Source: an uncultured Sphingobacteriaceae bacterium (GTDB lineage Bacteria > Bacteroidota > Bacteroidia > Sphingobacteriales > Sphingobacteriaceae). From it: 44,577 nucleotides of DNA. Within the stretch, counting starts at the first letter, position 1. Each line of letters starts with the position of its first letter. Of the stretch, positions 5,733 to 33,595 are shown one piece after another. The notes under the pieces were generated by a model. It had not been told where the DNA came from and searched no databases. It saw nothing but the letters and a program-made list of their open reading frames with translations. The stretch spans positions 1 to 44,577 of the forward strand of contig CAMPKC010000037.1 in the NCBI GenBank assembly GCA_946887045.1, in the 5' to 3' direction. Both the position numbers and the translations under genes were made by a program.

Positions 5733-6314
5733 TTGAAATTCATAAAAAATAAATCTACCGATAACTCATTAGGTGAAGCTGAACTCCTTGCCGAATACCG
5801 TCGTAATGGAAATTTGGCTACGGTAGGAAAATTATATGAACCGTATATGCCTTTAATCTTTGGTCTTTGCTTGAAATATTTGAAAGATGAAGAGCAAAGT
5901 AAAGATGCAGTAATGCAGATTTTTGAGCAGCTGATCACTAAATTAAAAATTCATAAAGTTGCCAATTTCAAGAGCTGGTTATACACGCTGGCCCGAAATC
6001 ATTGTTTAATGAATTTACGCTCCTCGCATAAACACGAGTTTGTCAATATTGATGATTATGGTGTGGAAAGTTTGGCCTTTTTGCATCAGGATACTGAGGA
6101 ACTAAAAGAAAATCAGCTTAATATCATGGAGAGATGTTTGCGAAAACTCCCTGATGAACAAAGGTTAACGATAGATTTGTTTTACTTGCAGCAAAAGTGT
6201 TATAAAGATGTTTCGGAAGCAACCGGCTTTGACCTTAATAAAGTGAAAAGCTATATCCAAAACGGTAAGCGGAATTTGAAAATTTGTATGGAGAAGAACG
6301 GTGGAAACGGATAG
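5733..6314 (+). CDS. RNA polymerase sigma factor, sigma-70 family (ECF type)
   Basis: The 193-residue protein has the two-domain ECF layout. Region 2 lies at about 25-95 (LCLKYLKDEEQSKDAVMQIF, then FKSWLYTLARNHCLMNLR). Region 4 lies at about 130-190 (LRKLPDEQRLTIDLFYLQQK, then the helix-turn-helix DVSEATGFDLNKVKSYIQNG). It should direct RNA polymerase to a small regulon, probably under control of the overlapping downstream membrane protein. Its 3' end overlaps the GTG start of that gene by 14 nt, which suggests translational coupling. The most likely start is an ATG at 5733 preceded by a possible operator dyad. Confidence 0.92.
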   Translation: MKFIKNKSTDNSLGEAELLAEYRRNGNLATVGKLYEPYMPLIFGLCLKYLKDEEQSKDAVMQIFEQLITKLKIHKVANFKSWLYTLARNHCLMNLRSSHKHEFVNIDDYGVESLAFLHQDTEELKENQLNIMERCLRKLPDEQRLTIDLFYLQQKCYKDVSEATGFDLNKVKSYIQNGKRNLKICMEKNGGNG

Positions 6315-22670: not shown

Positions 22671-23114
22671 ATGTCAGGAGTTAACAAAGTTATTTTGATT
22701 GGGCATTTAGGCAAGGATCCTGAAGTTCGGCATCTTGAAGGCGGTACCACTTTGGTTAATTTTCCTCTTGCTACTTCCGAAACGTATAGTAAAGACGGCA
22801 AAAAAATAGAGCAAACCGAGTGGCATAACATCGTGATGTGGCGTGGGCTTGCAGATGTCGCAGCTAAATTTCTTCAAAAAGGAAAGCAAGTTTACATCGA
22901 AGGGAAACTCAGGAGTCGTAATTACGAAGACAAAGAGGGAAATAAAAGATATGTTACTGAAATTGTAGCAGAAAATTTTACTATGCTGGGCCGTAAAAGT
23001 GAGAACGAAAACCATAGTAGTCATCAACAGAGCTCAAATAACTCGCCCACTACAAAAAGGGAAGATCAGCTTGTCGATTTTTCTGATGATGGTTCGGATG
23101 ATTTGCCATTCTAA
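22671..23114 (+). CDS. ssb: Single-stranded DNA-binding protein
   Basis: The 147-residue SSB has an N-terminal OB fold (about 1-108) starting MSGVNKVILIGHLGKDPEVR and containing EWHNIVMWRGLADVAAKFLQ. A Ser/Asn/Gln-rich linker leads to the acidic tip DDGSDDLPF, which recruits partner proteins. It coats single-stranded DNA in replication and repair and may be co-transcribed with mutY. A weak hairpin follows the stop. Confidence 0.96.
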   Translation: MSGVNKVILIGHLGKDPEVRHLEGGTTLVNFPLATSETYSKDGKKIEQTEWHNIVMWRGLADVAAKFLQKGKQVYIEGKLRSRNYEDKEGNKRYVTEIVAENFTMLGRKSENENHSSHQQSSNNSPTTKREDQLVDFSDDGSDDLPF

Positions 23115-23121
23115 AGAGCAC

Positions 23122-23152
23122 TCATTCAGTGTATTATCTATTAACTGAATGA
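23122..23152 (+). terminator. Hairpin after ssb, weak terminator
   Basis: TCATTCAGT (23122-23130) and ACTGAATGA (23144-23152) pair perfectly over 9 bp with a 13-nt loop. The downstream tract ATGATCTTTTGCCTTTT is only moderately T-rich. Confidence 0.5.
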
Positions 23153-23221
23153 ATGATCTTTTGCCTTTTAACGCTTGCCAGAGCGTTTTCAATAAAACAT
23201 ACATTAAATTTACATTCCGTA

Positions 23222-23253
23222 TTGGATAAATAATTATTTATTCAATACTTTTG
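23222..23253 (+). promoter_or_regulatory. Promoter of the arginine operon
   Basis: TTG at 23222-23224 (-33 type) and TACTTTTG at 23246-23253 (-7, consensus TAnnTTTG) are separated by 21 bp, the spacing known for Bacteroidota sigma-ABfr promoters. The start point should be near 23258-23262, giving a leader of about 280 nt before the first enzyme gene. Confidence 0.65.
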
Positions 23254-23296
23254 CATGCTTTAAACCTATTAATATACTGTAAGTCAAAGCATAGAA

Positions 23297-23431
23297 ATGA
23301 ACGTATCTTTAACCATAAATACAAAGCAAATCTCCTACAAAAGTGGGTGTGCGAGCTATATGGTACGTGAGAAAAAAAACACGGAGCGTTTAGTTCTAAG
23401 GCACCGACGACCGTTTATGCCAAGGGTTTGA
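23297..23431 (+). CDS. Putative 44-residue Arg-rich leader peptide of the arginine operon
   Basis: A 44-codon frame starts at ATG 23297, about 40 nt after the predicted transcription start, and stops at TGA 23429-23431. The first half is ordinary (MNVSLTINTKQISYK). The last 21 residues contain six Arg, including RHRR at 35-38 and PRV at the end, encoded by CGT, CGT, AGG, CGA, CGA and AGG. It shows no similarity to a known protein. Its place ahead of arginine biosynthesis genes and of terminator-like hairpins suggests a leader peptide whose translation reports Arg-tRNA supply. Coding status is inferred. Confidence 0.5.
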   Translation: MNVSLTINTKQISYKSGCASYMVREKKNTERLVLRHRRPFMPRV

Positions 23432-23452
23432 TTTTTTCCCCTCCCCACTGTG

Positions 23453-23536
23453 TCCGAATTATTCGGATGATAAACAACAAATTTTCTTTAAAACTGTAAA
23501 AGCTTAATGCTTTTTTATCCGTAAAGCGGATTTTTT
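23453..23536 (+). promoter_or_regulatory. Candidate attenuator hairpins in the arginine leader
   Basis: Three short hairpins follow the leader frame: TCCGAA/TTCGGA (23453-23467), AAAAGC/GCTTTT running into a T-tract (23498-23516), and ATCCG/CGGAT followed by six T (23517-23536), ending 5 nt before the GNAT ATG. CGGAT at 23464-23468 can pair instead with ATCCG at 23517-23521, so the first and last hairpins are mutually exclusive. This is the layout expected of antiterminator and terminator. The stems are short, so energies need calculation. Confidence 0.45.
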
Positions 23537-23541
23537 GAAAA

Positions 23542-24234
23542 ATGAACGAAAACGATTTCTCTATAGTAGTAGCATCTGAGGCCCATATTGAATATGCGCA
23601 GCAGATTTGTGATGAAATGGCCGAATCAGCAAAAGCTCGGGGAACTGGTATCGCAAAAAGAAGCCCTGAATATGTGGGCAACAAAATGCGGGAAGGGAAA
23701 GCGGTTATTGCTTTGCACAAGGATGGCACTTGGGCCGGATTTTGTTACATAGAAACATGGGATGGTGAGTTTGTAGCTAACTCAGGTTTAATTGTGAATC
23801 CTATTTATCGCAAGGCAGGATTGGCTAAAGCCATTAAAAAAAGAATTTTTAACCTATCTAGGGAAAAATATCCTGATGCCAAGATATTTGGTTTAACTAC
23901 GGGTTTAGCCGTAATGAAGATAAATTCTGAATTAGGATATGAACCTGTAACCTATTCTGAGCTTACAAAAGATGAAAATTTTTGGAGCGGCTGCAAAAGC
24001 TGTGTAAATTTCGACATTTTAACCATGAAGGAACGTAAAAATTGCCTTTGTACCGCAATGCTTTATGATCCGGTTGAGAAGAAGAAAGATGCAGAAGAGG
24101 CTGCGGAAAAAGCTAAAAAGGAGATGACTCACAAAGCTTCTCTTCTGGAACGTATTGAAGAGTCTATCAAAAAGTCGTTGAAAAGCGTTATCGCAAATAT
24201 TAATCTTGTTCCTAATACTTACTCTAATAAATAA
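23542..24234 (+). CDS. GNAT family N-acyltransferase, probable N-acylglutamate synthase of arginine pathway
   Basis: The 230-residue GNAT-fold protein has an acyl-CoA-binding loop near YRKAGLAKAI (89-98). A pair of Cys motifs is conserved-looking: CKSC (151-154) and CLC (168-170), arranged like a metal site. A Lys/Glu-rich helix ends the protein. As first gene of the arginine operon, with no classical ArgA or ArgJ visible, it most likely makes N-acetyl- or N-succinyl-glutamate. From memory a similar acetyltransferase precedes argG in Bacteroides. The stop and the argG start share one base (TAATG), which points to coupling. Confidence 0.8.
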   Translation: MNENDFSIVVASEAHIEYAQQICDEMAESAKARGTGIAKRSPEYVGNKMREGKAVIALHKDGTWAGFCYIETWDGEFVANSGLIVNPIYRKAGLAKAIKKRIFNLSREKYPDAKIFGLTTGLAVMKINSELGYEPVTYSELTKDENFWSGCKSCVNFDILTMKERKNCLCTAMLYDPVEKKKDAEEAAEKAKKEMTHKASLLERIEESIKKSLKSVIANINLVPNTYSNK

Positions 24235-25430
24235 TGAAGAAGAAAGTTGTTTTGGCCTTTAGTGGCGGTCTAGATACATCTTATTGTGCTATTTACCTAT
24301 CTAAAGACTTAGATCTTGAAGTACACTCTGTAATTGTTGACACCGGTGGTTTTAGTAAAGAGGAACTTGAACATATTGAGAAGAGGGCTTATGCATTAGG
24401 TGTTACATCACACCATGCTGTTGATGCTGTTAAAGGATATTATGATAGCTCAATCCGTTACCTGATTTACGGAAATGTATTAAAAAATAATACTTATCCC
24501 CTATCTGTAAGCGCAGAGCGTGTTACTCAGGCTACCGCAATTGCCGAATACGCAAAGGAAATTGGTGCTGATTTTGTTGCTCATGGTTCAACCGGAGCAG
24601 GAAACGATCAGGTTCGTTTTGACATGATTTTTAACATTCTTTGTCCGAATGTTGGCATCATCACACCTATACGTGATCTGAAGTTATCCCGCGAAGCGGA
24701 GATCGAATATTTAAAAGGTCATGGAGTTGAATTTAACTTCGAAAAAGCGCAATATTCCATTAACAAAGGTATTTGGGGAACTTCAGTTGGAGGGAAAGAA
24801 ACGCTTTCGTCGAAGGGAATTTTGCCAGAAGAAGCATGGCCAACTCAGGTAACCAAAACAGGCACCGAACAGGTTGAAATAGAATTCAAAAAAGGGGAAC
24901 TTGTTGGAGTAAATGGACAACAGTACCAACATCCTGTAGAAGCCATTCAAGCAATACAAGCATTGGCCGGGCCGTACGGGATCGGTCGTGATATACATAT
25001 TGGCGATACTATTATTGGGATTAAAGGCCGCGTTGGTTTTGAAGCAGCTGCCCCAATGGTTATTATTAAAGCCCACCATACTTTAGAAAAGCACACTCTA
25101 ACGAAATGGCAACTGAGCTGGAAAGATCAATTGGCGATGTTTTATGGTAACTGGATGCATGAAGGACAGTTTCACGATCCAATTATGCGTAATATGGAAG
25201 CTTTCCTTACCGACACCCAGAAAACTGTTTCAGGAAAAGTGTTTATTCAGTTAATGCCTTATCGTTTCCAGGTAATTGGAATTGAATCTAAGCACGATTT
25301 AATGGCTAGCAAATTCGGTAGTTACGGTGAGATGAATGAAGGCTACACTGGCGAGGATGTGAAAGGATTTTCTAAGATTTTTGGTAACCAGGTAAAGATT
25401 TACCATAGTGTGAACAGCGATGAAAGTTAG
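24234..25430 (+). CDS. argG: Argininosuccinate synthase
   Basis: The 398-residue enzyme joins citrulline and aspartate using ATP, the penultimate step of arginine synthesis. The PP-loop ATP motif AFSGGLDTS lies at residues 8-16. Further family segments include HGSTGAGNDQVRFD (about 117-130) and YSINKGIWGTSVGGKET (about 158-174). The length matches bacterial ArgG (about 400). It overlaps the GNAT gene by one base and argC by 11 bases, so it is embedded in a tight operon. Confidence 0.97.
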   Translation: MKKKVVLAFSGGLDTSYCAIYLSKDLDLEVHSVIVDTGGFSKEELEHIEKRAYALGVTSHHAVDAVKGYYDSSIRYLIYGNVLKNNTYPLSVSAERVTQATAIAEYAKEIGADFVAHGSTGAGNDQVRFDMIFNILCPNVGIITPIRDLKLSREAEIEYLKGHGVEFNFEKAQYSINKGIWGTSVGGKETLSSKGILPEEAWPTQVTKTGTEQVEIEFKKGELVGVNGQQYQHPVEAIQAIQALAGPYGIGRDIHIGDTIIGIKGRVGFEAAAPMVIIKAHHTLEKHTLTKWQLSWKDQLAMFYGNWMHEGQFHDPIMRNMEAFLTDTQKTVSGKVFIQLMPYRFQVIGIESKHDLMASKFGSYGEMNEGYTGEDVKGFSKIFGNQVKIYHSVNSDES

Positions 25431-26400
25431 AGCCGGAATTGTTGGTGGCGCGGGGTATACAGGAGGAGAATTGCTTCGGATTTTGATAAATCATCCTAAT
25501 GTTGATATCGCTTTTGTACATAGCAACAGTAACGCCGGCAATTATATTTACGATGTACATACTGATCTGATCGGCGATACGAGTATCAAATTTACTGGCG
25601 AGCTTTCGCAGGATATAGATGTTCTTTTCTTATGTGTAGGTCACGGCGATGCGAAGAAGTTTCTGGATGCAAACCCTATTGACGACACGATCAAGATTAT
25701 AGATTTAAGTCAGGATTTTAGATTAGGCAAAAATTCAACACTTGGAAATAAAACGTTTATCTACGGACTGCCAGAGCTAAACAGAGAGTCCATTAAATTA
25801 GCAAAAAACATTGCTAATCCAGGGTGTTTTGCAAGTTGCTTACAGTTCGCCTTACTTCCTTTAGCCAAAGCAGGGCTGTTAAATAAAGATGTTCATATTT
25901 CTGCGACAACCGGTTCTACTGGTGCAGGACAAAGTCTTTCATCCACTTCTCATTTCAGCTGGAGAAACAATAATCTTTCGGTCTATAAAGCTTTTGGTCA
26001 TCAGCATTTGAACGAAATTGGAGAAAGCATTAAACAACTTCAACCATCTTTTGCAGCAGAGGTTAATTTTATTCCTTACCGCGGAGATTTCACTCGAGGC
26101 ATTATGGCCTCTGTATACACTGAATGTGATTTGAGCCAGGAAGCGCTGGACGATCTCTACCAAAAATATTACGCTGAACATGAGTTTACTCATGTAAGCA
26201 AAAAGAATATCAACTTAAAGCAAGTTGTAAATACAAATAAATGCCTGGTACATGTAGAGAAACATGGAAACAAAGTCATGATACTGAGTATAATTGATAA
26301 TTTATTAAAAGGAGCATCCGGGCAAGCAGTTCAGAATATGAATTTGATGTTTGGATTTGACGAGAGGGCAGGATTGAGGCTGAAAGCGCAGGCGTTTTGA
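25420..26400 (+). CDS. argC: N-acetyl-gamma-glutamyl-phosphate reductase
   Basis: The 326-residue NADPH-dependent reductase converts N-acylglutamyl phosphate to the semialdehyde. The dinucleotide-binding loop GIVGGAGYTGGELLR opens the protein. Catalytic Cys136 sits in ANPGCFASC. FVHSNSNAG and HQHLNEI are typical of the family. Its ATG lies within the last codons of argG. The stop at 26400 is followed directly by the left arm of an inverted repeat around a four-helix-bundle gene, which separates argC from argD. Confidence 0.96.
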   Translation: MKVRAGIVGGAGYTGGELLRILINHPNVDIAFVHSNSNAGNYIYDVHTDLIGDTSIKFTGELSQDIDVLFLCVGHGDAKKFLDANPIDDTIKIIDLSQDFRLGKNSTLGNKTFIYGLPELNRESIKLAKNIANPGCFASCLQFALLPLAKAGLLNKDVHISATTGSTGAGQSLSSTSHFSWRNNNLSVYKAFGHQHLNEIGESIKQLQPSFAAEVNFIPYRGDFTRGIMASVYTECDLSQEALDDLYQKYYAEHEFTHVSKKNINLKQVVNTNKCLVHVEKHGNKVMILSIIDNLLKGASGQAVQNMNLMFGFDERAGLRLKAQAF

Positions 26401-26404
26401 GCAG

Positions 26405-26817
26405 AAAGGATAAAGCCTAAAGCTGAAAGCTCATGCGTGACTATAAGAAACTTGAAGTATGGAGAAGAGCACATCAATTAACTTTGTTTGTGTATCGGGA
26501 CGTACTTCCATTATTTCCACAGCATGAAACTTTTAGCCTAGCTTCGCAAACTAAACGGGCAGCCTATTCTATTTCGATGAATATCGTTGAAGGTTGTGGC
26601 AAGCACACTGAAAAAGACTTCACGAATTTTCTCGATATAAGTTTAGGTTCAACACATGAATTGGAGTATTGCTGTCTATTGTCTAAAGATTTAAATTATC
26701 TTCCTGAAGAGGTATTTGTAATTATAAATAATGAAGTAAATCAGGTGAAAGCAATGCTTATCGGCTTAATCAAGTCTATACGTGGCTAGAAGCTTTATGC
26801 TTTCAGCTTTTACCTTT
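26405..26817 (+). mobile_element. IVS-like element: four-helix-bundle gene between inverted repeats
   Basis: The perfect 12-bp inverted repeats AAAGCTGAAAGC (26419-26430) and GCTTTCAGCTTT (26799-26810) enclose a single gene of the S23/IVS family. Additional AAAGG (26405-26409) and CCTTT (26813-26817) extend the symmetry. This is the architecture of intervening sequences in 23S rRNA genes, here sitting between argC and argD in the reading direction of the operon. Mobility is inferred; no target duplication is evident. Confidence 0.6.
26433..26789 (+). CDS. Four-helix-bundle protein (S23/IVS family)
   Basis: The 118-residue protein belongs to the four-helix-bundle family related to the S23 intervening-sequence protein and to Avd of diversity-generating retroelements. 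Recognisable stretches are MRDYKKLEVWRRAHQL, ASQTKRAAYSISMNIVEGCG (about 38-57) and DISLGSTHELEYCCLLSKDL. The helices are basic and probably bind nucleic acid as an oligomer. The start codon follows the left inverted repeat by 2 nt. It has no known part in arginine synthesis, and its location looks like an insertion into the operon. Confidence 0.9.
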   Translation: MRDYKKLEVWRRAHQLTLFVYRDVLPLFPQHETFSLASQTKRAAYSISMNIVEGCGKHTEKDFTNFLDISLGSTHELEYCCLLSKDLNYLPEEVFVIINNEVNQVKAMLIGLIKSIRG

Positions 26818-26830
26818 AACCTTAATATAC

Positions 26831-27979
26831 ATGAAACTATTCGACGTTTACCCAATAAATAATATCGAAATTGTTAAAGGACAAGGCAGTCTTGTTTGGG
26901 ATAAAAATGGACAGGAGTACCTGGATTTATACGGCGGTCACGCTGTAATCTCTATCGGGCATACTCATCCGCATTATGTTAGCCGACTTACAGAACAATT
27001 AAATAAGCTGGGTTTCTATTCTAATTCGGTTGAAATTCCGCTTCAAGCTGAATTAGCGGAAAAGCTGGGGAAAGTTTCGGGCAGAGAAGATTATCAGTTA
27101 TTTTTAATTAGCTCTGGAGCAGAAGCAGTCGAAAATGCTTTAAAACTCGCTTCATTTTATAATGAACGTAAAAAGATAATCTCTTTTACAGGAGCGTTTC
27201 ACGGCCGGACATCTCTTGCAGTTTCAGTTACAAATAATCCAAAACTTGTAGCGCCGGTTAACGAAACTGACAATGTCATTTTTCTTCCTCATAATGATGA
27301 GGCTGCTTTAGAGCAGGCTTTCGCCGAATCAGGAAATGAGATCTGTGCAGTGATCATCGAAGGGATTCAAGGCGTTGGCGGAATAAAAGTGGCAACAGAA
27401 AGTTTCCTTCAAAAAATCCGTTCACTTTGCGATAAATATAACTCTGTCTTTATCGCTGACTCGGTTCAATGTGGCTATGGAAGAAGCGGGAAATTTTATT
27501 CACATGATTTTGCCGGCGTAGATGCAGATATTTACACCATGGCCAAAGGAATGGGCAATGGTTTTCCAATCGCCGGAATATCAATATCTCCGAAGTTTAA
27601 GGCATGGCATTATATGCTGGGAACTACTTTCGGAGGAAACCATTTGGCTTGTTCAGCCGGTTTAGCTGTTCTGGAAGTTATCGAACAAGATAATCTGATG
27701 CAGAATGCTGCTGAAGTTGGGACGTACTTATTAAACGAGTTAAAAAAAATTGACAGAATAAAAGAAGTTAGAGGCCGTGGCCTAATGATAGGAATTGAGT
27801 TACCGGACGAATTAAGTCATGTAAAAAAAGACCTTTTATTTAAGCATCATATCTTTACAGGGGAAGCAAAACCAAATGTGATTCGTTTGTTGCCTGCTCT
27901 GAATTTAAGTAAAGCTCATGCAGATAGATTTCTTGAAGCTTTCAGCAAAACAGTAGCCGAACAGCCAGTTTCAGTTTAG
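26831..27979 (+). CDS. argD: Acetylornithine/succinylornithine aminotransferase
   Basis: The 382-residue class III PLP aminotransferase makes N-acylornithine from the semialdehyde using glutamate. The cofactor-binding Lys239 lies in YTMAKGMGNGFPIAG. LISSGAEAVENALKLA and FHGRTSLAVSVT form the PLP phosphate-binding region. The length is typical of ArgD. It lies 41 bp after the right stop of the inserted four-helix-bundle gene and 38 bp before argF', with a direct-repeat pair in the latter gap. Confidence 0.95.
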   Translation: MKLFDVYPINNIEIVKGQGSLVWDKNGQEYLDLYGGHAVISIGHTHPHYVSRLTEQLNKLGFYSNSVEIPLQAELAEKLGKVSGREDYQLFLISSGAEAVENALKLASFYNERKKIISFTGAFHGRTSLAVSVTNNPKLVAPVNETDNVIFLPHNDEAALEQAFAESGNEICAVIIEGIQGVGGIKVATESFLQKIRSLCDKYNSVFIADSVQCGYGRSGKFYSHDFAGVDADIYTMAKGMGNGFPIAGISISPKFKAWHYMLGTTFGGNHLACSAGLAVLEVIEQDNLMQNAAEVGTYLLNELKKIDRIKEVRGRGLMIGIELPDELSHVKKDLLFKHHIFTGEAKPNVIRLLPALNLSKAHADRFLEAFSKTVAEQPVSV

Positions 27980-28017: not shown

Positions 28018-28977
28018 ATGAAATTATTCACCTCAGTACACGATGTTGCCAATGTTCCGGCTATTGTAAAAGAAGCATTAGAACTTAAAGCAAATCCATT
28101 CGCTCATCAGGAACTTGGAAAAAATAAGACCATCGGGTTAATTTTCCTTAATCCGAGTCTTCGTACCCGTTTAAGCACTCAAAAAGCGGCTCTTAATTTG
28201 GGCATGAATGCCATTGTGATGAATATCGACAAAGAAGGATGGGCGTTGGAAACCCGTGATGGTGTGGTGATGAATGGAACTACAGTGGAGCATATTCGCG
28301 AAGCTGCTGGTGTGATGGGAGAATATTGTGATATTTTGGGAATCAGGTCTTTTCCGAGTCTAAAGGATAAAGAAGAAGATTACAGTGAAGATATCTTTAA
28401 CAAGTTTATCAAATACAGTGGTATTCCAGTGGTAAGCTTAGAAAGCGCGACCCGTCATCCGCTGCAAAGCCTAGCTGATTTAATAACGATAGAAGAGCAT
28501 AAAAAAACGGCGAAACCTAAAGTTGTTTTAACCTGGGCTCCGCATGTAAAAGCGCTTCCGCAAGCTGTGCCTAACTCGTTTGCAGAATGGATGTGTAAAG
28601 CTCAGCAAGAGGGAATGATTGATTTTGTAATTACTCATCCTGAAGGATATGAGCTTGCAGAACAATTTACGCCTGGAGCGTCAATTACTTACAATCAGGA
28701 GGAAGCATTGGCCGGTGCAGACTTTGTTTATGTAAAAAACTGGTCAAGCTATCAGGATTACGGTAAGGTTTTAAGCGATGGTGAAGGTTGGATGATGACT
28801 CAGGAGAAGCTGAAAATCACTAATCAGGGAAAAGTGATGCACTGCCTGCCGGTTCGCCGGGATTTAGAGCTTGGATCTGATATATTGGACAGTGACGATT
28901 CTTTAGTGATTAAAGAAGCTGGAAATCGGGTTTGGGCTGCTCAAGTGGTGATAAAAAGTATATTGGAGGCGTTATAA
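28018..28977 (+). CDS. argF': N-succinyl/N-acetyl-ornithine carbamoyltransferase (ArgF')
   Basis: The 319-residue transcarbamylase acts on N-acylated ornithine rather than free ornithine. The carbamoyl phosphate motif SLRTR is at 47-51. The family hallmark ALPQAVPNSFAEW lies near 180, and HCLPVRR is near 276. Aligned from memory with Bacteroides fragilis succinylornithine transcarbamylase, Val90 (in GTTVEHI) occupies the Pro90 position that sets acyl specificity; acetylornithine enzymes have Glu there. A small residue favours succinylornithine. Its stop overlaps the argB start (TAATG). Confidence 0.93.
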   Translation: MKLFTSVHDVANVPAIVKEALELKANPFAHQELGKNKTIGLIFLNPSLRTRLSTQKAALNLGMNAIVMNIDKEGWALETRDGVVMNGTTVEHIREAAGVMGEYCDILGIRSFPSLKDKEEDYSEDIFNKFIKYSGIPVVSLESATRHPLQSLADLITIEEHKKTAKPKVVLTWAPHVKALPQAVPNSFAEWMCKAQQEGMIDFVITHPEGYELAEQFTPGASITYNQEEALAGADFVYVKNWSSYQDYGKVLSDGEGWMMTQEKLKITNQGKVMHCLPVRRDLELGSDILDSDDSLVIKEAGNRVWAAQVVIKSILEAL

Positions 28978-29765
28978 TGAATCCACTTTACGTCATCAAA
29001 ATCGGCGGCAATGTCATAGATAATTCTGAGAACCTGTACAATTTTCTGAATGATTTTGCAGGAATTGAAGGGCATAAAATTCTTATTCATGGGGGTGGTA
29101 AGTTAGCGACTGATTTATCCCATACAATGGGAATAGAACCTAAAATGGTTGATGGTCGCCGGATAACAGATATTGAAACCCTACGCATTGTAACTATGGT
29201 GTACGCTGGTTTGATAAATAAAAACATCGTTGCTCAGTTACAACGCTTCGAATGCAATGCTATCGGTTTAACTGGTGCCGATGCCAATCTTATCCGTGCA
29301 AACAGGCGACCTGTTAAGGATATTGATTACGGCTTTGTCGGCGACTTACATGAAGGTTCTGTTGCAAAAAATAGATTGAGCGACTTGCTTGAAGCGGGTT
29401 TAATCCCGGTTTTTTCTGCAATTACTCACGATGGCGAAGGTCAGCTTCTAAATACCAATGCTGATACCATTGCATCAGCTATCGCGATAGCAATGTCTTC
29501 GAGATACAAAGTTAGTCTCGTATATTGCTTCGAGAAAAAAGGAGTGCTTACTGATGTTGCTGACGATGAATCGGTTATCAGACAAATCAGTTCTTCGGAA
29601 TTTGGAAAGCTAAAAGCCGATGAAATTATTGCTGGAGGAATGCTTCCTAAGTTGGAGAACGCCTTCAAAGCAATAAACAGTGGAGTGAGTGAGGTGTATA
29701 TCGGTAAATCAGATGAGCTTGCTCTTTTAAATCAACAATTATTCGGAACACGATTATTTGCATAA
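28977..29765 (+). CDS. argB: Acetylglutamate kinase
   Basis: The 262-residue amino-acid kinase phosphorylates N-acylglutamate, the committed step. Lys8 with Gly10/Gly11 (VIKIGGNV) and HGGGK at 38-42 form the phosphate-binding loops. LLNTNADTIASAIAI is the ATP-side signature. The start at 28977 was chosen because it gives MNPLYVIKIGG and overlaps the argF' stop by one base; a longer upstream frame adds 15 unlikely residues. No N-terminal helix of the arginine-inhibited hexameric type is seen, so feedback control may be weak or absent. Confidence 0.94.
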   Translation: MNPLYVIKIGGNVIDNSENLYNFLNDFAGIEGHKILIHGGGKLATDLSHTMGIEPKMVDGRRITDIETLRIVTMVYAGLINKNIVAQLQRFECNAIGLTGADANLIRANRRPVKDIDYGFVGDLHEGSVAKNRLSDLLEAGLIPVFSAITHDGEGQLLNTNADTIASAIAIAMSSRYKVSLVYCFEKKGVLTDVADDESVIRQISSSEFGKLKADEIIAGGMLPKLENAFKAINSGVSEVYIGKSDELALLNQQLFGTRLFA

Positions 29766-29766
29766 A

Positions 29767-30582
29767 ATGGAGAATAACGGAAATATAGCCATACTTGGCA
29801 GTGGAAATATGGGACTGGCTTTTGCGTCGGGTTTGGTGAAATCGAACACTTATAAGCCTTCGCAAATTATCCTGACAAGAAGAAGCATTACCAATCTTAC
29901 AAAAGAAGCTGAAGAAGGGTACCAAACTACTACTAACAATTTTGAAGCGGCATCAAAGGCATCTATCGTTGTTTTGGCGGTTTTGCCTCAACAGCTAAAT
30001 TCGCTTTTGGCGGAAATTGAGGGAGCCATAAATCCTAAAAAGCATTTGATTATTTCTGTTATTACCGGCGTTACATGTAAAGATATTAAAGCAAAACTTA
30101 GTGAGGAAATTCAGGTTGTTCGTGCAATGCCTAACACTGCAATATCAATTGGGCAATCGATGACATGTATAACAACTGACAATGCCAGTAAGGAATACTT
30201 AGATCTTACAGAAAAGCTGTTTGAAACTGTAGGTTCTGTTGTACAGATACATGAAGATCTGATGTCGTCTGCAACAGCTTTATGTGCTTGTGGTATAGCA
30301 TTTTTTTTACGAGCAATTCGTGCTGCATCTCAAGGTGGGGTTGAGATAGGTTTCCACGCTGAAGATGCTTTAAAAATGGCCGTGCAAACCGCGAAAGGTG
30401 CGGCAGATCTATTACTGCTTCACGGTAGTCACCCAGAACATGAAATCGACAAAGTAACTTCTCCTAAAGGATGTACCATTGCCGGCTTGAACGAAATGGA
30501 GCATCAAGGCTTTAGTTCGGCATTGATTAAAGGGATAAAACTTTCTGCTCTAAAAGCCGGGGGATTATATAAAGAGAATTAA
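29767..30582 (+). CDS. proC: Pyrroline-5-carboxylate reductase
   Basis: The 271-residue protein has the NAD(P) loop ILGSGNMGLAFASG (about 9-22) and the C-terminal P5CR dimerisation motif TSPKGCTIAGLNEMEHQGF, with VRAMPNTAISIGQSMT in the middle. It reduces pyrroline-5-carboxylate to proline. Placement inside the arginine operon suggests joint control of arginine and proline synthesis, or use of glutamate or ornithine semialdehyde. The ATG at 29767 is 1 nt after the argB stop; an in-frame TTG slightly upstream is less likely. Confidence 0.92.
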   Translation: MENNGNIAILGSGNMGLAFASGLVKSNTYKPSQIILTRRSITNLTKEAEEGYQTTTNNFEAASKASIVVLAVLPQQLNSLLAEIEGAINPKKHLIISVITGVTCKDIKAKLSEEIQVVRAMPNTAISIGQSMTCITTDNASKEYLDLTEKLFETVGSVVQIHEDLMSSATALCACGIAFFLRAIRAASQGGVEIGFHAEDALKMAVQTAKGAADLLLLHGSHPEHEIDKVTSPKGCTIAGLNEMEHQGFSSALIKGIKLSALKAGGLYKEN

Positions 30583-30587
30583 TTCTA

Positions 30588-31649
30588 ATGACTGATAAAC
30601 TTGCAGCAGAAAGTATAGATTTATTGCAAAGTCTTATTGCCATTCCTTCTTACAGCAGGGAAGAAGACAAGACGGCTTATATACTTGAGCTCTTTTTTTC
30701 AGAACATGGGCTGCAACCGAAACGCAAGAAGAATAATATCTGGAGCGTAAATTATCATTACGATCCTCAAAAGCCCACAATCCTTCTTAATTCACATCAC
30801 GATACCGTAAAACCCAACCCTGGATACACCCGCAATCCTTTTTCGTCGGATATTGAGGATGGGAAACTATTTGGTTTGGGTAGTAACGATGCCGGAGGGT
30901 GCCTGGTTTCTCTTATTGCAGCTTTCCGGTATTTCTACGATAAAAGGGACCTTAAATATAATTTATGTATTGCTGCAACCGCAGAAGAAGAGATCTCCGG
31001 AAAAAATGGGATAGAATCACTTGTCCCTGATTTAGGTCCACTAGATTTTGCCATCGTGGGCGAACCAACCCTGATGGATTTAGCTATTGCTGAAAGAGGA
31101 TTGATGGTACTTGATTGCGTGGCTCACGGAAAAGCCGGACACGCTGCAAGAGAAGAAGGTGAGAATGCTATTTATAAAGCAATAAAAGATATTGATTGGT
31201 TCCGCACATTTAAATTCCCTAAAGAATCTGAACTTTTCGGTCCTGTAAAAATGTCGATAACAGTTATCAATGCGGGATCGCAGCACAATGTCGTTCCTGC
31301 AGAATGCACCTTTACTGTCGATGTTCGCGTTACTGACGCCTATCGGAATGAAGAGGTTGTAGACATAATAAAGCAACATGTTGCTTGTGACGTAACTCCT
31401 CGATCGACAAGGCTGAAGCCTTCTTCTATAAGTAAGGATCATCCATTTGTTCAGGCGGGATTAGCTTTAGGAAGAAAAACTTATGGCTCGCCTACGACAA
31501 GTGATCAGGCATTGCTGGATATAACTTCGGTTAAGATTGGTCCGGGTGATAGTGCAAGATCTCACATGGCTGATGAATTTATTTATGTAGATGAAATTCG
31601 CGAGGGGATTGAGTTGTACGTGAAAATCTTGGAAAAATTATTGCTTTAA
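30588..31649 (+). CDS. argE: M20 family deacylase, N-acylornithine/N-acylcitrulline deacetylase
   Basis: The 353-residue M20 metallopeptidase has a di-zinc site: His70 and Asp72 (NSHHDTVKP), bridging Asp101 (GSNDAGG), and the catalytic Glu133 with Glu134 (TAEEEISG). Pathway logic with ArgF' upstream means its likely substrate is N-acylcitrulline, yielding citrulline for ArgG. The dimerisation domain lies at about 165-280. It starts 5 nt after proC and is followed by a toxin-antitoxin pair before argH. Confidence 0.9.
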   Translation: MTDKLAAESIDLLQSLIAIPSYSREEDKTAYILELFFSEHGLQPKRKKNNIWSVNYHYDPQKPTILLNSHHDTVKPNPGYTRNPFSSDIEDGKLFGLGSNDAGGCLVSLIAAFRYFYDKRDLKYNLCIAATAEEEISGKNGIESLVPDLGPLDFAIVGEPTLMDLAIAERGLMVLDCVAHGKAGHAAREEGENAIYKAIKDIDWFRTFKFPKESELFGPVKMSITVINAGSQHNVVPAECTFTVDVRVTDAYRNEEVVDIIKQHVACDVTPRSTRLKPSSISKDHPFVQAGLALGRKTYGSPTTSDQALLDITSVKIGPGDSARSHMADEFIYVDEIREGIELYVKILEKLLL

Positions 31650-32260: not shown

Positions 32261-33595
32261 ATGAAACTTTGGCAAAAAGATAAGCAAGTAGAAAAATCAG
32301 TAGAAACGTTTACCGTTGGTAAAGACCGGGAATTAGACGCGGAAATGGCAGCCTTCGATGTACTTGGTTCGCTTGCTCATACACGTATGCTCGAAAGCAT
32401 AAGTTTACTCAGTAAAGAGGATTTAAACACGGTTCAGAAAGAATTAAAAAACATCTACAAGGAAATTGCTGAAGGTAATTTCACGATCGAAGACGGTGTA
32501 GAAGACGTTCATTCGCAAGTAGAATTATTGTTAACTCAGCGTATTGGCGAAGCAGGAAAAAAAATCCATAGTGGTCGATCACGTAACGACCAGGTTTTGG
32601 TTGATCTTAAATTGTACTTCCGAAGTCAGATTCAGCGTACTGTCGAAAATACAGAGGCTTTATTTCAGCAACTCATTACCTTAAGTAACGAACACAAAGA
32701 CAAACTTCTTCCGGGATATACACATTTGCAAATTGCAATGCCGTCGTCTTTTGGCTTATGGTTCGGCGCTTATGCCGAGAGCCTTGTTGACGACTTGGAA
32801 ATGATGCTGGCTGCCTGGAAAGTTTGCAATAAAAATCCTCTGGGTTCTGCAGCCGGATATGGTTCGTCTTTTCCGCTAAATCGTACCATGACGACCCAGT
32901 TATTGGGCTTCGATTCCCTGAACTATAATGTGGTTTATGCTCAAATGGGACGTGGGAAAACAGAACGAATACTCGCTCAGGCTATGTCTTCTATCGCTGC
33001 AAGTCTTGCAAAGCTTTCAATGGATGTGACTTTGTTCATTAATCAAAATTTCGGTTTTATAAGCTTTCCTGATGAGCTTACGACAGGATCGAGCATAATG
33101 CCTCACAAGAAAAATCCCGATGTTTTTGAGTTGATGCGCTCGCGTTGTAATAAAATTCAGGCTTTGCCAAATGAAATTGCTTTGATGACTACTAATTTAC
33201 CATCGGGTTATCACCGTGATTTGCAGTTGTTAAAAGAAAATCTTTTCCCGGCATTTCAATCATTAAATGAATGCCTTGAGATGGCCGTCTTCATGCTTCA
33301 AAATATCTCAGTTAAAGATGATATTTTAAAAGATCCAAAATACCTTTATCTCTTTAGTGTAGAGGCTGTTAATGAAGATGTTTTAAAAGGACTGCCTTTC
33401 CGCGAAGCCTACAAAAAAGTCGGTCTTGAAATTGAACGAGGCGAGTTTAAAGCGCCGGAAAAAGTTCAGCATACACACGAAGGTAGCATTGGGAACTTAT
33501 GCAATCAGGAAATCAGCGCTGCTTTTCAGCAAACCTTATCTTCATTTAATTTTAAAAAAGTAGAGCAAGCAATTCGAGAGCTTGTATCCGAATAG
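32261..33595 (+). CDS. argH: Argininosuccinate lyase
   Basis: The 444-residue enzyme splits argininosuccinate into arginine and fumarate, the last step. The fumarase/aspartase superfamily signature GSSIMPHKKNPD lies at 276-287 with its flexible catalytic Ser. YTHLQ at 153-157 holds the second active-site His. SGRSRNDQ is at 104-111. The length is slightly shorter than E. coli ArgH (457) but complete. It follows the toxin gene by 15 nt and precedes an aminotransferase by 12 nt. Confidence 0.97.
   Translation: MKLWQKDKQVEKSVETFTVGKDRELDAEMAAFDVLGSLAHTRMLESISLLSKEDLNTVQKELKNIYKEIAEGNFTIEDGVEDVHSQVELLLTQRIGEAGKKIHSGRSRNDQVLVDLKLYFRSQIQRTVENTEALFQQLITLSNEHKDKLLPGYTHLQIAMPSSFGLWFGAYAESLVDDLEMMLAAWKVCNKNPLGSAAGYGSSFPLNRTMTTQLLGFDSLNYNVVYAQMGRGKTERILAQAMSSIAASLAKLSMDVTLFINQNFGFISFPDELTTGSSIMPHKKNPDVFELMRSRCNKIQALPNEIALMTTNLPSGYHRDLQLLKENLFPAFQSLNECLEMAVFMLQNISVKDDILKDPKYLYLFSVEAVNEDVLKGLPFREAYKKVGLEIERGEFKAPEKVQHTHEGSIGNLCNQEISAAFQQTLSSFNFKKVEQAIRELVSE

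Follow-up and report, generated by a model that had tools for sequence, protein, structure and literature searches.

The arginine operon of an uncultured Sphingobacteriaceae bacterium is preceded by a frame of 44 codons which, judged by comparison with its relatives, is a real arginine leader peptide under selection and no chance open reading frame. On the best reading of these sequences, the arginine sensor is a near-invariant pair of rare codons, CGA-CGA, near the end of the frame. We consider it probable that a ribosome pausing at this pair, when Arg-tRNA is short, would switch the fold of the leader RNA and turn the operon on. The same comparison indicates that Arg leaders are present in many other families of Bacteroidota. 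The window referred to below is the whole stretch of DNA analysed, 44,577 nucleotides in length. Its leader region contains the following features:

23222..23253, + strand: Bacteroidota-type promoter, TTG-N21-TACTTTTG (sequence; the form recurs in family leaders)
23297..23431, + strand: leader peptide ORF of 44 codons, MNVSLTINTKQISYKSGCASYMVREKKNTERLVLRHRRPFMPRV, stop TGA (family conservation and coding constraint)
23396..23428, + strand: conserved C-terminal codons -12 to -2, LRHRRPFMPRV (Arg and Pro conservation in relatives)
23405..23410, + strand: putative tandem CGA-CGA control codons, Arg37-Arg38 (in-frame conservation in relatives)
23423..23442, + strand: stop-codon hairpin SL-stop, last codons with the first nucleotides past the stop (predicted fold)
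23452..23468, + strand: hairpin SL2 (MFE; arms in relatives unrelated but complementary)
23475..23537, + strand: alternative pairing of 23475-23490 with 23522-23537, which excludes H4, a candidate antiterminator (MFE of the post-stop region)
23498..23514, + strand: hairpin H3, AAAAGC-loop-GCTTTT, then T's (MFE; arms changing in relatives)
23517..23536, + strand: hairpin H4, ATCCGTAAAGCGGAT, with T-tract, terminator-like, 5 nt before the ATG at 23542 (fold and terminator scan)

The arginine operon that follows comprises, in order:

23542..24234, + strand: first operon gene, GNAT-type acetyltransferase-like protein, 230 aa (profile A1 against GNAT acetyltransferase chains, best 3e-8)
24234..25430, + strand: argG, argininosuccinate synthase (TIGR00032, above cut-off)
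25420..26400, + strand: argC (TIGR01850, above cut-off)
26433-26789: four-helix ORF of 23S rRNA-IVP type, between argC and argD
26831..27979, + strand: argD-type aminotransferase (best match TIGR00707, below its cut-off)
28018..28977, + strand: N-acetylornithine carbamoyltransferase-type gene (best match NF003384, below its cut-off)
28932..29765, + strand: argB, acetylglutamate kinase (TIGR00761, above cut-off)
29758..30582, + strand: proC (TIGR00112, above cut-off)
30588..31649, + strand: ArgE/DapE-type deacylase (TIGR01910, below its cut-off)
32261..33595, + strand: argH (TIGR00838, above cut-off)

Pfam GNAT models matched the first operon gene only below their cut-offs; it had no NCBIfam match, and no confirmed relative was found in the viral sequence collection. 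One relative (L001) carries, at the position corresponding to the IVP-type ORF, an ORF of equal length (5885-6241), a match of length and not of profile.

The first-pass annotation had proposed a promoter (TTG, 21 bp, TACTTTTG) and a 44-codon frame with six Arg in its last 21 residues, and both were confirmed, at 23222-23253 and 23297-23431. The Arg residues lie at positions 24, 31, 35, 37, 38 and 43, the peptide ends LRHRRPFMPRV, and 110 nt separate the leader stop from the first gene. A strict form of the promoter, TTG-N18-23-TAnnTTTG, occurred at most 130 nt ahead of 39 of 120 family leaders as compared with 14 of 1200 shuffles; it was absent before the other 81.

Relatives were collected by means of the first gene. 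A scan with it gave 225, of which the best 80 were kept; a family draw found the gene in 226 of 251 genomes, and 89 regions were used (29 best-scoring loci and 60 picked from the list); a phylum draw found it in 124 of 296 genomes, from which 123 loci resulted, at one locus each, after one that was too short was dropped and extra copies in six genomes were omitted. A short ORF with at least four Arg in its last 12 residues was present in 85 of the 89 Sphingobacteriaceae upstream regions; the corresponding counts were 3 of 89 for reverse complements and 30 of 1780 (1.7%) for shuffles. Across the phylum the same mark was reached in 57 of 123 loci, against 5 of 123 reverse complements and 89 of 2460 shuffles (3.6%), while 66 loci fell below it. 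Among the 80 best-scoring relatives, our first motif script recovered an ORF with an Arg-rich end in 54 (the wrong ORF was taken in L080). By eye, most of the other 26 have an Arg-rich end of a different form; in L015 the contig ends within the region, and L069 has no visible Arg-rich leader end. Eight loci (L134, L136, L139, L142, L143, L157, L159 and L177) share a conserved short ORF, MNKxSxHxTSLSRTxxPxTSPEVRxL, some 236-243 nt ahead of the first-gene match; it has only two Arg in most, and is possibly a divergent leader of the arginine operon.

The frame itself bears the mark of selection. Over the last 10 codons, in-frame pN/pS was 0.42 and 0.39 in two groups of 20 and 24 leaders, as opposed to 0.90-1.28 in shifted frames; over the last 14 codons it was 0.45-0.54, as opposed to 0.82-1.54. 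The same comparison detected no frame-specific purifying selection at codons -15 to -34, and so it is the end of the peptide on which selection acts. The leader motif CGACGACCNWTNHTGCCNMGRG had a single occurrence in each of 34 out of 121 family genomes, and its reversed control had none. The alignment of relatives that had been suggested as a check yielded both conserved Arg codons and a frame-specific synonymous bias in the Sphingobacteriaceae leaders.

Conservation is sharpest at the codon level. When leaders were picked by a rule that ignores Arg (the longest ORF that spans 15-70 codons and terminates 80-170 nt ahead of the first gene), an ORF was obtained in 85 of the 89 family-draw regions, and 82 of these carried CGA-CGA in frame within the last 12 codons; Arg stood at -9 in 83, at -8 in 75 and at -3 in 84 of the 85. 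The same rule applied to the 47 Sphingobacteriaceae loci among the best 80 relatives gave 44 ORFs, 42 with CGA-CGA. A larger set of 123 distinct leaders (89 from the family draw, 34 from the best-80 scan and the window) was picked by a motif that itself demands Arg near the end; CGA-CGA was in frame in 120. Sorted by Arg position, these leaders fall into two main classes, of 65 (RxRRP) and 42, with 16 others put aside. CGA occupies codon -9 in all 107 leaders of these classes and in 114 of the full 123; in the RxRRP class, Arg -11 is drawn from all six codons and Arg -3 from four. CGA accounts for 309 of 647 Arg codons within the leaders; among the 1557 Arg codons of long ORFs lying downstream of 46 leaders its share is 5.1%. 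It is not very rare in the window itself, where the long ORFs use it for 14% of 526 Arg codons.

Farther afield, inspection by eye found CGACGA in Chitinophaga-type leaders as well (L062, L066, L072, L076 and L077), and the ends of 17 flavobacterial leaders read CGG-CGG-CGG in 12, CGA-CGG-CGG in four and CGG-CGG-CAG in one; in one flavobacterial leader (L175) two further codons follow the terminal run. The genome of one relative gave 39 tRNA matches, of which the three weakest were excluded; among the 36 read, the Arg anticodons were ACG, TCT, CCT and CCG, with TCG not among them, so CGA would be read by the ACG (inosine) isoacceptor, seemingly the only one able to do so. In the part of the Salmonella his leader work available to us, high de-attenuation is reported from Arg pairs with CGA (PMC4046918), and theory, as given in an excerpt, ties attenuator sensitivity to low-usage, starvation-sensitive codons (PMC1183508). 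A partial text on Salmonella orf34 describes a like response to Arg with rare and frequent codons, CGACGA and CGCCGC, and thus codon rarity appears dispensable in that leader (PMC6386406).

Short hairpins follow the leader stop. The first-pass annotation had noted such hairpins with T-tracts, the last ending 5 nt before the first gene, and H4 with its T-tract bears this out; the site, scored at 23517-23531, is the only terminator-like one in 23100-23600 (mean of 0.3 in shuffles). The 110 nt past the stop have a z of -2.60, with 4 of 200 shuffles folding as well; H4 is weak in the window, at -5.3 kcal/mol, and the MFE structure is the alternative fold that excludes it. In the window's clade (22 sequences) SL2, H3 and H4 recur with altered yet complementary arms, H3 for instance as AAAGACTA/TAGTCTTT or AAGGCTA/TAGCCTT, among others, and z averages -1.67 over the SL2 region and -1.55 over the final 70 nt. 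The CGG of the H4 3' arm is invariant in the 22-sequence alignment (A2). Because this MAFFT alignment misaligns H3 between sub-clades, arms were compared per sequence and column-wise pair counts omitted; the automatic choice of H3 and H4 takes another stem in some rows (for instance WIN, L004, L247 and L266), and rows were read individually. Terminator-like sites at -4 kcal/mol or better occurred in 25% of the 123 leaders as opposed to 11% of shuffles. Given the weak terminal hairpin and an enrichment of only about two-fold, classical termination is plausible but not established. Flavobacterial leaders, inspected by eye, showed no U-tract before the first gene, so termination is improbable as a universal output. 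No Rfam riboswitch or leader family matched the window above its gathering score.

Two long pairings had been put forward. CGGAT (23464-23468) and ATCCG (23517-23521), held to compete, both lie where they were reported; the pairing is not conserved in relatives. As a general switch it was rejected, the CGGAT hairpin arms being unrelated in, for example, L001, L002, L005, L009, L247 and L280. AGTGGG (23342-23347) and CCCACT (23444-23449) are likewise in place, and by eye this pairing found no support as a switch. The frame, its Arg codons and the folding past the stop stand above chance; for the two pairings no excess over chance emerged.

Hairpins of other kinds were observed elsewhere. Terminator-like hairpins lie within the Arg-leader reading frame in Rufibacter/Sabulibacter (L051, L053, L061, L063, L067, L068, L070, L075 and L078) and Pontibacter (L050, L055, L060, L071, L073, L074 and L079), upstream of the last Arg codons and with similar predicted folds, e.g. 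CTGTTCT-TCCC-AGAACAG followed by T6. By eye, nine leaders forming a separate group (L133, L137, L144, L148, L154, L170, L173, L176 and L185) end RRP* and are followed by a hairpin with the loop AGGTGAGTCC or similar, which the SL2 loops of Parapedobacter (GAGTCC or GGTCC) resemble. In flavobacterial leaders such as L147, L151, L156 and L167, the stretch before the gene appeared G-poor and YC-rich, with no U-tract, and might be a Rho loading site.

Covariation was assessed by comparing the pairing of each sequence's own 5' and 3' segments with that of segments swapped among sequences (2000 permutations). Class labels reflect a grouping by peptide ending and pre-gene motif, with genus names taken from titled loci of the best-80 scan. 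For SL-stop, own segments beat swapped ones in the Sphingobacterium/Parapedobacter-type class (n = 42; 0/2000 permutations as good) and in the P. glucosidilyticus-type class (n = 10; 1/2000); the Mucilaginibacter-type class gave no significant result (n = 43; 355/2000). The covarying stems that had been anticipated were found, for SL-stop, in two related classes, and were marginal in the window's own clade (n = 28; 120/2000). In that clade no conserved antiterminator pairing between the leader codons and the pre-gene region was found: 1173 of 2000 permutations did at least as well, and recurrent complementarity between the two had no common position (best 3/28).

The order of events we propose is as follows. 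Transcription would start just past 23253, and the transcript would carry a short leader gene whose translation gauges the supply of Arg-tRNA. When charged tRNA-Arg is scarce, a ribosome would pause at the tandem CGA codons (23405-23410); when arginine is abundant, it would translate through to the stop codon (23429-23431). A ribosome extends 12-13 nt beyond its A-site codon at the front. When paused at CGA-CGA it would thus reach to about codons -5/-4, immediately short of the 5' arm of SL-stop; at the stop codon it would cover that arm. With the ribosome in these two positions, different folds of SL-stop, SL2, H3 and H4 would be expected downstream. In the window's clade, the most likely output is premature transcription termination at the weak tandem H3/H4, whose U-tracts precede the first gene: plentiful arginine would favour termination, and scarce arginine read-through into the first gene. 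What the comparison shows is a leader that is under selection and looks translated, the constancy of its Arg and CGA codons, hairpins whose arms change together, and 40 genomes of such loci in which ArgR was not found; we infer the pausing, its direction, the fold that acts as the switch, and termination as the output. The position of the ribosome edge, together with the logic of orf34/speF as set out in part of PMC6386406, leads us to favour pausing at CGA-CGA under arginine shortage as the signal for on. The idea of an attenuator governed by stalling at Arg codons thus keeps its Arg-rich leader, conserved Arg codons, synonymous bias and downstream hairpins, and loses its named pairings as the switch.

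Other explanations account for parts of the same evidence. It is hardly credible that the frame is a chance ORF in a region consisting only of promoter and 5' UTR, with the operon controlled otherwise; short ORFs are frequent and the terminator-like features are weak, but the frame-specific pN/pS, the excess of Arg leaders over shuffles, the once-per-genome motif and the conservation of CGA-CGA all contradict it. The main contender, although still an unlikely one, is translational attenuation, in which the leader Arg codons or their neighbours pair upstream of the first gene and a pausing ribosome frees that region and starts translation, no terminator being needed. GGTC lies no more than 32 nt ahead of the gene in 42 of 69 leaders with CGACGACC, and in the class defined by this GGTC, the Sphingobacterium/Parapedobacter-type one, the Arg codons covary with the site (own 17.8, swapped 16.4; 0/2000): the base that follows CGACC and the one preceding GGTC are T:A in 19, T:G in 4 and C:G in 15, with 4 mismatches. 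In 17 flavobacterial leaders, where no U-tract was visible by eye, covariation links codons 6-12 to a segment before the gene (19.5 against 14.5; 0/2000), but the control stretch, codons 1-5, also reached 46/2000. The window's clade lacks such pairing, the Mucilaginibacter-type class shows it weakly (64/2000), and 27 of the 69 leaders are without GGTC. Any masking of the flavobacterial gene start would be indirect, since the paired segment lies 30-63 nt ahead of the matched start (ten measured).

SpeFL, TnaC and the fungal AAP are ligand-sensing arrest peptides, and by analogy free arginine could arrest the ribosome at the end of an RxRRPxxPR leader. In the RxRRP class, which is defined by its Arg, Pro -7 is kept in 64 of 65 leaders and Pro -4 in 63 of 65 despite free synonymous change (pN 0.03; pS 0.65 and 0.67), a pattern to be expected if residues rather than bases matter; Arg -11 and -3 belong to the definition of the class. 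Sensing of residues does not, however, require the codon-level constancy of CGA at -9; across the phylum, by eye, the Arg run is kept and the other residues are not, and RNA pairing can hold the Pro codons in part of the family. We therefore consider arrest improbable, and pausing at CGA-CGA remains our preferred reading.

A search for the arginine repressor ArgR (PF02863) found it in none of 40 genomes, taken from 40 of the 80 best-scoring loci and including that of L069, the locus with no visible leader; among control genomes, 8 of 14 were positive, Bacteroides ihuae included. In the phylum draw of 296 genomes, ArgR was present in 109 and the first gene in 124, with both in 3 and neither in 66 (Fisher p 6e-30, uncorrected for kinship). 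One of the three with both (G073) has only a weak partial match to ArgR with an internal stop. In G270 and G278 the ArgR gene directly adjoins the operon's first gene, and no Arg-rich leader was found in their upstream regions (at most 1 and 2 Arg). The pattern fits a replacement of ArgR, although clade boundaries may account for it. We put forward as a tentative possibility that, in much of Bacteroidota, arginine synthesis is controlled not by ArgR but by a fast-evolving leader sensor of rare Arg codons, and that in some clades the control codons or those adjacent pair ahead of the gene, making the pausing ribosome itself the switch with neither terminator nor antiterminator. The proposed leader sensor itself would account for arginine sensing in those Bacteroidota that have no ArgR, and would be an attenuator of arginine biosynthesis in bacteria whose signature is clear at the level of codons. 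It would also let selective tRNA charging be tested in nature, with a rare codon pair fixed while adjacent Arg codons drift, and bear on ribosome-controlled switches in a phylum without Shine-Dalgarno initiation.

Several known systems are comparable. The his and trp attenuators of enterobacteria, as described in an excerpt of PMC1183508, likewise have a leader ORF with control codons of the pathway, alternative hairpins and a bias in the control codons. The system described here differs in its amino acid, its near-invariant CGA-CGA pair, its weak terminal hairpin, the failure to find a conserved antiterminator among the window's clade, and a phylum without Shine-Dalgarno sequences, as noted for flavobacteria in part of PMC9723704. 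Closer in logic is orf34 (speFL) of Salmonella speF-potE, for which the portion of PMC6386406 available describes two consecutive Arg codons that pause the ribosome at low Arg and a post-stop hairpin that forms with the ribosome paused upstream and is blocked with the ribosome at the stop; the hairpin that pausing permits keeps the message active, so that low Arg is the on state. Unlike the leaders described here, orf34 governs polyamine rather than arginine synthesis and uses Rho and RNase G; its tandem Arg are codons 12-13 of 34, its stop-adjacent Arg is dispensable, and rare and frequent codons act alike (same source, in part). In the Staphylococcus aureus rbfL uORF, rare Arg codons of a short uORF also sense Arg limitation; there, according to a partial text (PMC13009471), a paused ribosome obstructs the ribosome-binding site of the gene and thereby causes repression, and the target is a biofilm regulator. 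Within the phylum, leader-peptide attenuation has been suggested ahead of amino-acid biosynthesis operons in Flavobacterium psychrophilum (PMC9723704), and attenuation by way of short ORFs in long 5' UTRs in Bacteroides thetaiotaomicron (PMC7366714); the portions available name no amino acid, and arginine may or may not be among those concerned. Among the matches listed in open-licence PMC full text there was no description of a leader attenuator for arginine biosynthesis in Bacteroidota, though the 2010 attenuation survey by Lopatovskaya and others could cover some. Leader-peptide attenuation in general is a known form of control.
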